IMG/VR virus record: IMGVR_UViG_3300042555_002161
Span: 1 to 38,139 of that record
DNA: 38,139 bases
Strand: one strand, 5' to 3'
Source: a virus
Part shown: piece by piece, positions 14,151-18,390 of the stretch
Numbering within the stretch: the first letter of the stretch is position 1
Layout: every line of letters begins with the position of its first letter
Program-made: the position numbers and the translations under genes
Notes under the pieces: model-generated
What the model saw: the letters and a program-made list of their open reading frames with translations, nothing else
What the model was told of the DNA's origin: nothing
The model's database searches: none

Positions 14151-14593
14151 TGACCCTCACCGACGCCATCCTCGATGTGCTCCAAGACCTCAAGCGCCGG
14201 CGGCCGCTTGATCAGGTCCCCACGCTTACGATCGATGAAGCGGCGGAGTATATTGGCGTTTCCGTTTCACAGTTCCGCGACCAGGCACCAATCCACGGGC
14301 TGCAGTCGCGCAAAGTCATGGGCCGTGTGATGTACCGCCGCGCCGATCTTGACCAATTAGTAGAGGCACTATGGCTGGATACCGTAAACGATCAAAAGGC
14401 ACGGCAGAGTACTGGGAGCTTACGTGGCGCGAGCACGGCAAGCCGTGCACACAGAGCCTCGGTCGCGTCGACAAGTTGCGAGAGTCCGAAGTCCGCGAGC
14501 TCGCACGCCGCAAAGGTCGTGAGCTTATCCTCAGCGAGCACGCCGTCGTCAAGCCGCAGCTCAGCTTCGCCGAGTGGTGCCGACAATACCTAG
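14150..14593 (+). CDS. helix-turn-helix protein, candidate excisionase, overlapping int
   Basis: The first 80 residues are a MerR/excisionase-type DNA-binding domain (LTIDEAAEYIGVSVSQFRDQ ... KVMGRVMYRRADLDQLVEAL). The frame then runs on for 223 bases inside the integrase gene, where the residues become serine-rich and look like a shadow. So either the true protein carries an unstructured tail, or an indel has removed a stop just before int (a TAG lies in another frame at 14361). Adjacent to int, so an excisionase role is plausible. Confidence 0.55.
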   Translation: MTLTDAILDVLQDLKRRRPLDQVPTLTIDEAAEYIGVSVSQFRDQAPIHGLQSRKVMGRVMYRRADLDQLVEALWLDTVNDQKARQSTGSLRGASTASRAHRASVASTSCESPKSASSHAAKVVSLSSASTPSSSRSSASPSGADNT

Positions 14594-15399
14594 AGTGGCA
14601 CGGTGCCGAGTACCCGCATTCGCACGTCCGTGTGGCGCAGATTGTCGAGCAGCATTTGCTTGAACATTTCACTGGCACGCTTGAAGGCATTTCGCAGATT
14701 GATGTGGAGCGTTACAAATTTGCGCGCACCGATGCAGGGGCCGCACCAGGCACCGTCACCAAAGAAATGCGCACGCTTAAAGCCATGCTGAACCGCGCCG
14801 TCGCACTTGGCTTGCTCGCGCGCAGCCCGGCACAGTTAGTCAAAACCCCACGCAGCCTAGACAACAAAAAAGGCTTCACCTACTTCACCGCCGATGAGCT
14901 GCAAACGATTTATCAAGATGGCTGCGTCGACGATTGGCACCGCTGGGCGTGGCAGCTATACGCCAGCACCGGCGCGCGGTTGCAAGAGCTGCTCAACCTT
15001 AAATGGGCAGACGTCGGCACCAACACCCTGCACCTGGTCAGCACAGGTGAGGAGCGCACCAAGAGCGGCGAAGGCCGCGACGTGCCTTTAATGGCCAGCG
15101 CCACCGAAGCACTGGCATTCTTTCGCACATGGGAAGGCAAGAGCGATCTCTACGTGCTGCCGCGTGTGTACCGCACCAGCCTCTCACGCATCGCGGCACG
15201 GTGCATTCGGCGGGCAAAGCTGAAGGGCAGTTTGCACACGTTTCGGCACACATTCGCCAGCAACTTGGCGCTGGATCCGCGCATACCGATTTCAGCAATC
15301 AAAGAGTGGATGGGCCACTCAACCATTCGCGTGACGGAGCAATACATGCACCTGCGCGAAGGTGTCAGCAGTGAGATTTTGAGAGGGATGCGGTTATGA
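14371..15399 (+). CDS. int: tyrosine-type integrase
   Basis: 342 residues. An N-terminal arm/core-binding region (FAEWCRQYLEWHG... TVTKEMRTLKAML) is followed by the catalytic domain with R203 (STGARLQELL), a candidate K231, H289-x-x-R292 (HTFRHTFASNLA), H316 (EWMGHSTI) and the nucleophile Y325 (TEQYMHL). It recombines attP, 360 bases downstream, with a host tRNA-Glu gene. The start ATG 14371 lies within the preceding gene; the stop overlaps the next ATG. Confidence 0.96.
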   Translation: MAGYRKRSKGTAEYWELTWREHGKPCTQSLGRVDKLRESEVRELARRKGRELILSEHAVVKPQLSFAEWCRQYLEWHGAEYPHSHVRVAQIVEQHLLEHFTGTLEGISQIDVERYKFARTDAGAAPGTVTKEMRTLKAMLNRAVALGLLARSPAQLVKTPRSLDNKKGFTYFTADELQTIYQDGCVDDWHRWAWQLYASTGARLQELLNLKWADVGTNTLHLVSTGEERTKSGEGRDVPLMASATEALAFFRTWEGKSDLYVLPRVYRTSLSRIAARCIRRAKLKGSLHTFRHTFASNLALDPRIPISAIKEWMGHSTIRVTEQYMHLREGVSSEILRGMRL

Positions 15400-15757: not shown

Positions 15758-15805
15758 TGGCGTCCCCACGGGGATTCGAACCCCGGTTACCGCCGTGAAA
15801 GGGCG
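15758..15805 (-). other. attP: attP core: 3' half of tRNA-Glu(UUC)
   Basis: The minus strand from 15805 to 15758 reads as a tRNA from the anticodon stem to CCA: CGCCCTTTCACGGCGG (anticodon loop CUUUCAC, anticodon UUC), variable loop, T-arm GGGGTTCGAATCCCC and acceptor end GGGGACGCCA. No 5' half is present on its upstream side (above 15805), so it is not a gene. It is the typical shared core by which a tyrosine integrase inserts into a tRNA gene and restores its 3' half. Confidence 0.9.
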
Positions 15806-15865
15806 ATCCAGCACTTTATAAATCAGGCACTTACGACAGAGTGCCGATATTTTGCTGAGGCAACC

Positions 15866-15946: not shown

Positions 15947-15993
15947 TTTATTTGCAAAACGTGCTTGACACGTTCGCCAAAAGCGAACAGAAT
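15947..15993 (+). promoter_or_regulatory. accessory promoter 1 with palindrome in the spacer
   Basis: TTGACA (15965-15970), 17-bp spacer, CAGAAT (15988-15993). The spacer holds a perfect inverted repeat GTTCGC-(5)-GCGAAC (15972-15988), a natural operator for a dimeric regulator. The 25 bases 15947-15971 match 17400-17424 at 24 positions, so promoters 1 and 2 are related. Drives 16042-17387. Confidence 0.8.
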
Positions 15994-16041
15994 GCAGTCA
16001 TCGGAAGCAATCGTGCAAGCCGATACCTCTTGGAGAACACC

Positions 16042-16398
16042 ATGACTACATACTACTCCACCATCCAGTCCACCGGCTCGCGCGCCAGCTGCGGAGGCCT
16101 CGGCAGAATCAGCACACACCAAATTTCGCGCAAAGACATCGTGCGCATAGCTTTCGAGGTTTCCCAGCGCTCAGGCTGGACGGCAGAAGAGCACGTCGGC
16201 ATCAAGTTGATCGAAGCCGAAGACGGCAGCCTAAACTACGAGCGCGAGCTCACGGAAGAAGAATTGTTCCAAGCTTCGGTCGAGCGCTTGGGTGACGACG
16301 GCAAAATTTATGAGGTTTATGACCAGTCTAGCGACGTAGAAATGGCCGAGTACCGGCTCCGTTGCGAGGAATTCGGCCTTGAGCCGATTGAGGCTTAG
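16042..16398 (+). CDS. acidic small protein, candidate anti-CRISPR/anti-defence (118 aa)
   Basis: First gene after accessory promoter 1; ATG 16042 has TGGAGA upstream. The product starts MTTYYSTIQSTGSRASCGGL and is strongly acidic in its second half (ELTEEELFQASVERLGDDG): by my count about twice as many acidic as basic residues. It shares an operon with an Aca2-type repressor, the classic neighbour of anti-CRISPR genes. No known Acr is recognised in the sequence, so the function is an inference from context only. Confidence 0.55.
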   Translation: MTTYYSTIQSTGSRASCGGLGRISTHQISRKDIVRIAFEVSQRSGWTAEEHVGIKLIEAEDGSLNYERELTEEELFQASVERLGDDGKIYEVYDQSSDVEMAEYRLRCEEFGLEPIEA

Positions 16399-16408
16399 GG
16401 GAGTGCAA

Positions 16409-16594
16409 ATGCGAGCAATCAAAGGCGGTATCTACCATCTGTCCGGCAGTCTCAACGTTGCCAAAGTTGTTGTGTCAGGTTCTAAGTATGTTCGTTATGA
16501 AGTTTTTCGTGGCGGTATACGCCTGATTGAGCCCGATTGCAGGCTCAATCAATCGGACTTTTTACGGCTTTACTTTCCCGTCCTTGGCTGCTGA
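16409..16594 (+). CDS. small unknown protein of accessory operon 1 (61 aa)
   Basis: ATG 16409 with GGGGAG six to ten bases upstream, 10 bases after the preceding stop. Basic, beta-rich (IYHLSGSLNVAKVVVSGSKY). No family recognised. Candidate second anti-defence gene by position. Confidence 0.5.
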   Translation: MRAIKGGIYHLSGSLNVAKVVVSGSKYVRYEVFRGGIRLIEPDCRLNQSDFLRLYFPVLGC

Positions 16595-16654
16595 TCTACA
16601 CACGAATAGGTCTAGCATTCATTTGTTTTCGAAATCGCATAAAAGGGGGCGGCT

Positions 16655-16924
16655 ATGACACATAAAAACCGTGGCCGCATCACCGTCGCTCTTGGCGGTG
16701 CTTGGCGGATCTACACAACACGCATACCCGCCACCGGCAGAGCTATAGGCACTGTAGTCAGCAACGGCGAGACTGGCGCGCTGGTCTATATCGAGCGCAC
16801 CGGCATCTACGTCCGGTGCAATGCGGGAGCGGTTAGCTCTCTCCCGCAAAGCAAAGTTGTTGCTGCGGTCACTAAGGCTCGCATGTCCGGTCAACCGCAG
16901 AAATCGGTTAGATTGATCGGTTAA
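16655..16924 (+). CDS. small unknown protein of accessory operon 1 (89 aa)
   Basis: ATG 16655 with a strong AAGGGGGCGG upstream. Beta-rich N-terminal two thirds (RITVALGGAWRIYTTRIPAT, ALVYIERTGIYVRCNAGAV), then a basic helix (PQSKVVAAVTKARMSG). Ends one base before the Aca2-like start. Unknown; third candidate anti-defence gene. Confidence 0.55.
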   Translation: MTHKNRGRITVALGGAWRIYTTRIPATGRAIGTVVSNGETGALVYIERTGIYVRCNAGAVSSLPQSKVVAAVTKARMSGQPQKSVRLIG

Positions 16925-16925
16925 A

Positions 16926-17387
16926 ATGACCGCCACCGAACTGCAAGCGCTGCGGCGCTTGCTTTTTTTCACCCAGCAAGAGGCTGCCTCGATGATTTCA
17001 GGCACGTCTCATCGCGCCTGGCAACATTGGGAGGACGGCAAACGTGCCGTACCCGCCGACGTCGTTGAACGCATGCGGGAACTGGCTGACTGGCGCGAGC
17101 GCGCGATCGACGCGATGCTTGACGCGATCCAAGACAACATCGACGCTCACGACGGGCAGCAGCCGGAATCTATCCCGTTGGTCTGGTATTTCAATGCCGG
17201 CGATTGGAACGGCGGCCCAATCTTGTGGCGGCCACATCAATCAGCGTGCGCGGCCATGTTGGCGCTCAACGACCGCGTGCGTCTGGTGCCGTTTGACAGC
17301 GCGGCCTATGCCGCGTGGCTTGGCGACAAGGCCGACTCTAGCGAACACCGCGCCATGTGGGCTACCATCGCTCAAAAAACCCGCTGA
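16926..17387 (+). CDS. aca2: YdiL/DUF1870-type HTH regulator, Aca2-like
   Basis: 153 residues. The first 60 match the Aca2/YdiL pattern: MTATELQALRRLLFFTQQEA, then ISGTSHRAWQHWEDGKRAVP and ADVVERMRELADW. Aca2 proteins repress acr operons by binding inverted repeats in the acr promoter. Here the matching palindrome GTTCGC-N5-GCGAAC lies in the promoter of the same operon (15972-15988). The C-terminal 90 residues are longer than in usual Aca2 (about 120 total) and resemble the second domain of YdiL. It is the last gene of the operon, as is usual for aca genes. Confidence 0.72.
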   Translation: MTATELQALRRLLFFTQQEAASMISGTSHRAWQHWEDGKRAVPADVVERMRELADWRERAIDAMLDAIQDNIDAHDGQQPESIPLVWYFNAGDWNGGPILWRPHQSACAAMLALNDRVRLVPFDSAAYAAWLGDKADSSEHRAMWATIAQKTR

Positions 17388-17399
17388 TACATCCATCAT

Positions 17400-17446
17400 T
17401 TTATTTGCAAAAAGTGCTTGACACACTATCCCGATTGTGGGATAGT
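17400..17446 (+). promoter_or_regulatory. accessory promoter 2 with long palindrome
   Basis: TTGACA (17418-17423), 17-bp spacer, GATAGT (17441-17446). A perfect inverted repeat ACTATCCC-(6)-GGGATAGT (17425-17446) fills the spacer and the -10. The upstream 25 bases (17400-17424) are nearly identical to those of promoter 1, but the operator is different, so a different regulator is expected, plausibly the protein at 18031-18309. Confidence 0.82.
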
Positions 17447-17466
17447 AAACACATGGCAGCACGGTA

Positions 17467-17488
17467 CTAGATCACCGATCTGATCTAG
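17467..17488 (+). promoter_or_regulatory. hairpin in the leader of accessory operon 2
   Basis: CTAGATC/GATCTAG with an eight-base loop, between promoter 2 and ATG 17526 in an otherwise untranslated 80-base leader. It could be a second operator or an RNA control element; Aca2-type proteins are known to act on RNA as well as DNA. Confidence 0.4.
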
Positions 17489-17525
17489 CCTGACCCCGGC
17501 AGGTTGCACCGGATGGAGATGCAAA

Positions 17526-17783
17526 ATGAAAAAAGCACAATTCCCCGCAGAAATTCAAAACGCAATAGCTGCCGGATTCGTTATTGATGATTCGTTGAAC
17601 GATGTTCGCGTCACCGGCGAGTTGAGTTACTACGACCACAACGGGAATCCGGACAATCCATCGATGGTCTATAGGTTGTGGGATGATGCACCGGACGGCG
17701 AAATCGCCGGAATGCGTTTCGAGGTCTATGACGACGGCAGGGTTGAATCAGACCGAATTGATGCAAACGGCGCGATTCTCTGA
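17526..17783 (+). CDS. acidic small protein, candidate anti-defence (85 aa)
   Basis: First gene of accessory operon 2; TGGAG lies nine bases before the ATG. Very acidic (WDDAPDGEIAG, EVYDDGRVESDRID), mixed alpha/beta, starting MKKAQFPAEIQNAIAAGFVI. No family recognised. Small, acidic, and followed by an HTH gene, so it fits the profile of anti-CRISPR-type proteins; unproven. Confidence 0.55.
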   Translation: MKKAQFPAEIQNAIAAGFVIDDSLNDVRVTGELSYYDHNGNPDNPSMVYRLWDDAPDGEIAGMRFEVYDDGRVESDRIDANGAIL

Positions 17784-18034
17784 TGCGCATTTTCGCATCT
17801 CTGATGCGCCGGGCCGATGCGCTTCGGCGTGTCGAGTCCGACCCGGCCCGCGCTGAATGGTGGGCTGGGTATATTCGCGGGCTGCGTCGTGCGCACCACG
17901 GCAATAATTTCGGCACTGAGGCAGAACATCAAATGTGGCTGGATGCGGCAGACTCGACCGATACGCTCCGCGCATCGTTAGGCGCGGGCTATCGCGCCGG
18001 CCTGACGCTGACCGCAATCGATCCTCCCAAATGA
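17783..18034 (+). CDS. unknown protein of accessory operon 2 (83 aa)
   Basis: Start ATG 17783 shares a base with the previous stop (TGATG). Helical, with WWAGYIRGLRRAHHGNNFGT and a C-terminal ATLRASLGAGYRAGL-type stretch. No family recognised. Ends in an ATGA overlap with the HTH gene. Confidence 0.5.
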   Translation: MRIFASLMRRADALRRVESDPARAEWWAGYIRGLRRAHHGNNFGTEAEHQMWLDAADSTDTLRASLGAGYRAGLTLTAIDPPK

Positions 18035-18309
18035 GCGCTGCGGCCATCATTGAGTCGTGGATGCAGGTTGTCCGGTTTGAGGGCTGGACCGACACCGATT
18101 GCCTCAACGACCTCAACCGCTCAATGCGGACACGGTACACACTGTCGCGGCTCGGTGAGTGGCGCAACTGCAAACGACCGATGCCGCCGGAGGTGCGGCG
18201 GTACATGCTCGCTATAGGCATCGGCGTTTTGCTCAAAAAACACGGCATCCCTGCTGACACGTACGATGACGGCAGCAATTTTGATGCACTTGCGGATGAT
18301 TTGACGTAG
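18031..18309 (+). CDS. helix-turn-helix protein ending accessory operon 2 (Aca-like candidate)
   Basis: 92 residues from ATG 18031. Residues 24-58 read as a helix-turn-helix with the sequence LNRSMRTRYTLSRLGEWRN, then CKRPMPPEVRRYML, similar in rhythm to small phage repressors whose recognition helix precedes a W/P-rich turn (EWRNGKR.. type). It is the terminal gene of a short operon whose promoter holds a 22-bp palindrome, so autoregulation is likely. It is not the same family as the protein at 16926. Confidence 0.5.
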   Translation: MSAAAIIESWMQVVRFEGWTDTDCLNDLNRSMRTRYTLSRLGEWRNCKRPMPPEVRRYMLAIGIGVLLKKHGIPADTYDDGSNFDALADDLT

Positions 18310-18390
18310 AGGGCAAACGCGCCGATTCTAGCCCTCAACGCGCCGCGTGGGCGGCTACCATACCACCGCCGGGCTGATCGCGTCGCTACG

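Follow-up and report, generated by a model that had tools for sequence, protein, structure and literature searches.

Positions 15947 to 17387 of a 38,139-base virus record (IMGVR_UViG_3300042555_002161, positions 1-38,139; hereafter, the window) probably form a cassette of the acr-aca2 type that counters host defence and represses its own promoter. The small genes it carries rank as good candidates for novel defence inhibitors, because the promoter, the operator, and the repressor are arranged as in known anti-CRISPR operons. Judged from its sequence, the cassette appears to be new in what it adds to this architecture: its payloads are new, a tandem cassette with a different regulator follows it, and its regulator gene probably contains an attenuator.

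We propose that, upon phage entry, the promoter would be free of repressor and therefore on, and the payload would be made at once. The Aca2-like protein, encoded by the last gene, would then bind the palindrome between the -35 and -10 hexamers and shut the promoter. A hairpin in the first aca2 codons would probably end many transcripts, leaving the payload in excess over the repressor and delaying shut-off. Among the payload proteins, P0001 and P0002 would inhibit host defence, and P0003 would serve as an accessory or co-regulator. The first cassette is followed by a second one that has the same layout and what is probably another regulator.

Locus, promoter, and regulator

The locus consists of two back-to-back small-gene cassettes, each with its own promoter and palindrome (Table 1). 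Elsewhere, the window contains an integrase gene (14371-15399), a portal gene, and a DUF5675 gene. The tRNA-Glu sequence is probably attP, the attachment site, and the phage host is probably betaproteobacterial. A tRNA-Glu sequence likewise lies upstream of the cassette of a related locus, L003. The four genes of cassette 1 (16042-17387) are all open, and a purine-rich stretch precedes the ATG of each of P0001, P0002, and P0003. An earlier, sequence-only reading had described the promoter, palindrome, gene order, and helix-turn-helix (HTH) protein of cassette 1, all of which were found in place; it had overlooked cassette 2 (17400-18309), the aca2 3' remnant (18312-18382), and the hairpin (16943-16962).

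Table 1. Features of the two cassettes and their flanks (window coordinates)
Feature	Position	Strand	Remarks
tRNA-Glu sequence	15758-15830	-	between integrase and cassette 1; 3' half at least looks genuine
Promoter box TTTATTTGCAAAACGTGCTTGACAC, cassette 1	15947-15971	+	conserved; repeated at 17400-17424 (96%)
Sigma-70-like promoter TTGACA-17-CAGAAT	15965-15993	+	-35 at 15965-15970, -10 at 15988-15993
Operator palindrome GTTCGC-CAAAA-GCGAAC	15972-15988	+	between hexamers; Aca2 half-sites as in ZF40
5' leader hairpin AUCGG...CCGAU	15999-16026	+	sequence conserved in L002, L003, L012
P0001, 118 aa, acidic orphan, first candidate inhibitor	16042-16398	+	no relatives found
P0002, 61 aa, basic, second candidate inhibitor	16409-16594	+	without family match
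P0003, 89 aa, basic	16655-16924	+	widespread accessory family of small-gene phage operons
P0004, 153 aa, Aca2/YdiL-family regulator	16926-17387	+	last gene of cassette 1
Terminator-like hairpin GCAAGCGC-TGCG-GCGCTTGC + T7	16943-16969 (stem-loop 16943-16962)	+	aca2 codons 6-15
Promoter box, cassette 2	17400-17424	+	96% repeat of cassette 1 box
Promoter TTGACA-17-GATAGT	17418-17446	+	cassette 2
Palindrome CTATCCC-GATTGT-GGGATAG	17426-17445	+	between cassette 2 hexamers
P0005, 85 aa, acidic, cassette 2 payload	17526-17783	+	matches no known Acr or function
P0006, 83 aa, shared penultimate gene	17783-18034	+	71% identical in L012
P0007, 92 aa, probable HTH regulator of cassette 2	18031-18309	+	without family match
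aca2 3' remnant (recombination scar)	18312-18382	+	identical to L003 aca2 3' end and following bases

A sequence scan bore out the proposal of a near-consensus promoter with GTTCGC-N5-GCGAAC between its hexamers. The promoter matches 10 of 12 consensus positions, and a palindrome of this form has a single match in 38 kb and none in 100 dinucleotide shuffles. As for Aca2, the inverted repeat lies within the core promoter of the regulator's own operon. The acrIF8-aca2 promoter of phage ZF40 contains TGTTCGC-GATT-GCGAACA, which we read, from its place in the promoter, as IR1, the site tightly bound by Aca2 (PMC8434428). The arms GTTCGC/GCGAAC are identical in the window, in the three relatives with an intact promoter (L002, L003, and L012), and in ZF40; the spacers are CAAAA in the window, AAAAC in L002 and L003, CATTT in L012, and GATT in ZF40.

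Other Aca2-type loci have a palindrome with different arms at the equivalent place, including the Pasteurella phages Pmp12 (TGTTCTA) and CFP3 (TGGTCG) and the plasmids of P. toruni (ATGGTCG) and Serratia (GGTCGC), while the Shewanella, P. damselae, and L039 loci have no clear promoter palindrome. When sigma-70-like promoters were scanned for 6-bp palindromes, shuffles of Aca2-type regions scored 0 to 8%. Scanning the viral contigs for the promoter box returned already known loci, apparent chance matches, and nothing else. The leader hairpin was also considered as an RNA structure; its folding energy was not better than that of shuffles in the window or L012, and no claim is made for it.

Family and structure searches agree with the earlier assignment of the HTH protein, P0004, to the Aca2/YdiL family. 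PF08965 (Aca2_YdiL) matches it with an E value of 4.8e-21 and 75.6 bits (curated cut-off, 23.8), and its best relatives with a solved structure are Aca2 chains in the PDB (E values of 2.5e-12 to 1.3e-11). Arg30, the key DNA-contacting residue of Aca2 (PMC8434428), is retained together with Trp32 and Trp35, and it is invariant in the alignment with ZF40 Aca2. A tblastn search of 50,697 phage records with P0004 recovered five, namely, two records of ZF40, from which the characterised Aca2 comes, and three Pasteurella phages. The regulatory half of the interpretation is well supported, because an Aca2-family protein stands last in the operon and ZF40 half-sites, kept in relatives, lie between -35 and -10. 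P0004, whose gene closes an operon in which no upstream gene is a proven acr, is thus very probably an Aca2-type autorepressor.

Payload genes and their exchange

P0001-P0003 are small genes directly upstream of an aca gene on a mobile element, and such neighbors of aca genes can turn out to be anti-CRISPRs, which themselves sit among other anti-defence genes (PMC7648647). Consistent with the earlier statement that none is a described Acr, the three proteins had no match to one in searches of Pfam, NCBIfam, PHROGs, and PADLOC, a negative that is not decisive because no sequence is common to all Acr families. No homologue with an unrelated, established function emerged either, as none of the payloads is related to a protein whose function is known, and family searches recognized no toxin family beside the HTH gene. 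P0001, which has a net charge of -12 and a pI of 4.5, has no homologues in the viral contigs, the phages, or the 399 genomes from the order that were searched, and no function can be inferred for it because it has no relatives. Neither P0001 nor P0003 matched the PDB; the single-sequence structure model of P0001 was unusable (pLDDT 46). On sequence grounds, P0001 and P0002 appear to be the likeliest inhibitors of a host defence, ahead of P0003. The earlier description of all three genes as lacking a recognized family stands with regard to function, but P0003 has many relatives that resemble accessory proteins or regulator partners.

These P0003 relatives occur in 20 viral loci and in the Acidovorax phages Alfacinha1, Alfacinha3, and AP1, within operons of small genes whose other members vary. 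In seven loci (L014-L019 and L043), the P0003 domain continues into a fused C-terminal stretch that resembles a ribbon-helix-helix DNA-binding domain, a call made by eye and having no Pfam or NCBIfam match; at several others, an HTH gene comes next. No relative was found in plasmids or, by single-sequence scan, in genome contigs, and a profile search found one in 4 of 399 genomes. The structure model of P0003 (pLDDT 81.5) had no convincing fold match in the PDB or BFVD (best second-look Z score, 3.4). Genes that recur in operons of this kind usually encode regulators or regulator partners. P0003 was ranked below P0001 and P0002 as an inhibitor because it is the constant member of operons with varying genes, and it is probably an accessory or co-regulator. 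We consider it rather unlikely that P0003 is itself the inhibitor and that, when fused, it represents an Acr-Aca fusion of the AcrIIA1 or AcrIF24 kind: Acr proteins fused to HTH domains do exist, as exemplified by AcrIIA1 (PMC9410906), and P0003 sits immediately before regulators, but upstream genes that vary around a constant P0003 form the pattern of a regulator or accessory.

Two Acidovorax phage operons with a P0003 relative (L007:3060-4241 and L008:2900-4889) end in an XRE-type HTH gene and carry the palindrome ACTCTC-N5-GAGAGT near the promoter, with the spacers ATAAC and AATAT. They are separate candidate anti-defence operons. In general, only a minority of P0003 and P0006 operons have promoter palindromes, as counted with a strict promoter pattern that does not recognize the weaker -35 hexamers found in ZF40 and in the Acidovorax phages.

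Among the relatives of cassette 1, a constant promoter, operator arms, and regulator enclose four unrelated payloads, namely, the three genes of the window, an 86-aa protein in L003, a 102-aa protein in L002, L004, and L013, and a 144-aa protein in L012 (the contigs of L004 and L013 do not show the promoter). The L013 payload is 60% identical to that of L002 and L004, and no similarity was found between the four groups. Such swapping of payloads between fixed regulatory parts is the behaviour of acr-aca loci. L012 and L013 are contigs of a Rhodocyclaceae metagenome-assembled genome (MAG) and are related to the window through the cassettes only. Because the L012 contig carries PRTRC ParB, ThiF, A, and B genes, the cassettes occur not only on phages but also on an element that is plasmid-like or integrative; the presence of both cassettes there also argues against a virion function.

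At the Aca2-like loci of phages and plasmids examined, one small hypothetical gene lies directly upstream of the regulator. For instance, the Pasteurella phages Pmp12 (L009:2560-3450), Pm86 (L064:1100-1950), and CFP3 (L065:1100-1890) each pair one hypothetical small gene with an Aca2-like gene; palindromes lie in their promoters and hairpins at the junctions. Shewanella, Photobacterium, and Serratia plasmids (L066-L069) have one hypothetical gene of 68 to 96 aa directly before a DUF1870 gene, and these small genes are candidate plasmid anti-defence genes. The Rhodocyclaceae MAG also contains a divergent cas1-like gene (L049:1943-2968) that matches type II and I-E models weakly; its surroundings contained no recognizable cas operon in a search of the MAG that covered cas1 alone.

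Cassette 2 has its own promoter palindrome and a last gene that is HTH-like and different from that of cassette 1. The L012 counterpart of this palindrome, CTATACAGATGCCCGTATAG, has one pair changed on both sides, a compensatory difference. In L012, the second-type cassette sits upstream of the Aca2 cassette and contains a different payload (158 aa), P0006, and a homologue of P0007 (46% identity over 41 residues). An HTH function for P0007 is suggested by a YTLSRLGxWxN stretch and by its position in the operon. In the window and in L012, L056, and L059, the gene after P0006 is HTH-like, whereas L062 and L063 have P0006 joined to a ribbon-helix-helix-like C-terminal stretch. The fused forms of P0003 and P0006 come from other phages and one genome. 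A scrap of an aca2 3' end similar to the scar in the window lies ahead of the second-type cassette of L012 (L012:2271-2306). The repeated promoter boxes and aca2 3' scraps suggest that recombination at these boxes and at aca2 ends brings cassettes together.

A hairpin inside the start of aca2

With both strands counted, the window has three hairpins of comparable strength with a T run, including the one in aca2. When the first 20 aca2 codons were recoded synonymously, an equally good hairpin arose in 254 of 200,000 recodings. Five relatives keep the hairpin, excepting its loop. In a comparison with L012 and L013, roughly one in two of codons 16-60 is changed, whereas among codons 7-15 only codon 9 is, and its third base lies in the loop.

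Hairpins followed by a T-rich stretch also occur at the payload-regulator junctions of Pmp12 (AAGCCCGC-N5-GCGGGCTT), its near twin Pm86 (an unrelated stem, GCCCTC-N4-GAGGGC), CFP3 (GCCCGCA-N4-TGCGGGC), and P. toruni (GGCGGT-N4-ACCGCC). The Serratia and L039 junctions have strong stems without a T run, and those of ZF40, Shewanella, and P. damselae have no hairpin. Altogether, 6 of 11 loci combine a junction hairpin with a T-rich stretch, against 0.03 expected in shuffles; some of the loci are related, so that a fair count is about four independent cases, and the window, whose hairpin was seen before the search began, is not an independent test.

These observations suggest that the aca2 hairpin is a built-in brake on repressor synthesis, that is, an attenuator. 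It is conceivable, if doubtful, that the Aca2-like protein instead binds the hairpin as an RNA site, or that the hairpin stabilizes the 3' end of the mRNA. ZF40 Aca2 reportedly also binds stem-loops in its own mRNA, which favors an RNA site; the T-rich stretch after the stem in 6 of 11 loci and the unrelated stem sequences speak against it. Returning to attenuation, we tentatively posit, at slightly less than even confidence, that Aca2-controlled operons commonly have an intrinsic terminator between payload and repressor, in this case within the first codons of the repressor gene, which acts alongside operator binding to set how much inhibitor is made per repressor and when shut-off comes, and that cassettes accrete in tandem at shared promoter boxes and aca2 3' ends. 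If true, this would amount to a second layer of control in acr-aca operons, with an attenuator keeping the repressor scarce. No report of an attenuator in these operons was found in a literature search that covered papers available without subscription.

Function and comparison with known systems

A counter-defence role of some kind is likely for the payload, and CRISPR-Cas is the likeliest single target. That at least one of the genes is a true anti-CRISPR is a narrower claim, which we regard as quite possible and just short of an even chance. Several observations count against the counter-defence reading: known acr genes adjoin only 3% of Aca2-like proteins (PMC9410906), the payloads match no known Acr or function, and no CRISPR target, host, or spacer was identified.

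The rarity of known acr genes beside Aca2-like regulators and the absence of Acr homology in the payloads would equally suit a moron that has no counter-defence role, such as a superinfection exclusion or lysogeny trait, and is restrained by an Aca2-like repressor. We deem this unlikely, given that the same cassette pair is found on a PRTRC plasmid-like contig and that payloads are exchanged between conserved regulatory parts. Less probable still is a toxin-antitoxin module in which, as in MqsRA, a small upstream toxin is paired with an autorepressing HTH antitoxin. Aca2 does resemble MqsA, as evidenced by a weak match of TIGR03830 to P0004 (the link is discussed in PMC9410906); nevertheless, no toxin family was found in any payload, one antitoxin would need to pair with four unrelated payloads, and the hairpin would lower antitoxin relative to toxin.

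The counter-defence reading yields a ranked short list of candidate small proteins, consisting of P0001, P0002, and P0005 of the window and the payloads that replace them in L002, L003, and L012, all from mobile elements of probable betaproteobacteria. To our knowledge, few defence inhibitors are known from betaproteobacteria.

Among known systems, acrIF8-aca2 of ZF40 shares with cassette 1 the order of small gene or genes and then Aca2, the GTTCGC/GCGAAC half-sites between -35 and -10, and a location between an integrase gene and opposite-strand genes, which in ZF40 are annotated as lysis genes. Unlike ZF40, the window has three payload genes without similarity to AcrIF8, a regulator of 153 rather than 116 aa, a T7 hairpin in the start of the regulator gene, and a second cassette downstream, and it lacks an IR2 of the ZF40 kind. 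The operons of Pmp12, Pm86, CFP3, and the P. toruni and Serratia plasmids likewise combine an Aca2-like regulator with a promoter palindrome and a hairpin at the junction; however, they have a single payload gene, and their hairpin occupies the space between the two genes instead of the start of the regulator gene (the Serratia hairpin has no T run). In the Acidovorax Alfacinha1 and AP1 operons, a P0003 relative is similarly a late gene before an HTH regulator, and a palindrome lies near the promoter, but the regulator is an XRE-type HTH protein of 61 to 69 aa instead of Aca2. Finally, P0004 belongs to the same fold family as the solo YdiL/DUF1870 proteins; whereas those are described as products of stand-alone chromosomal genes (PMC8434428), P0004 closes a small-gene operon of a mobile element.
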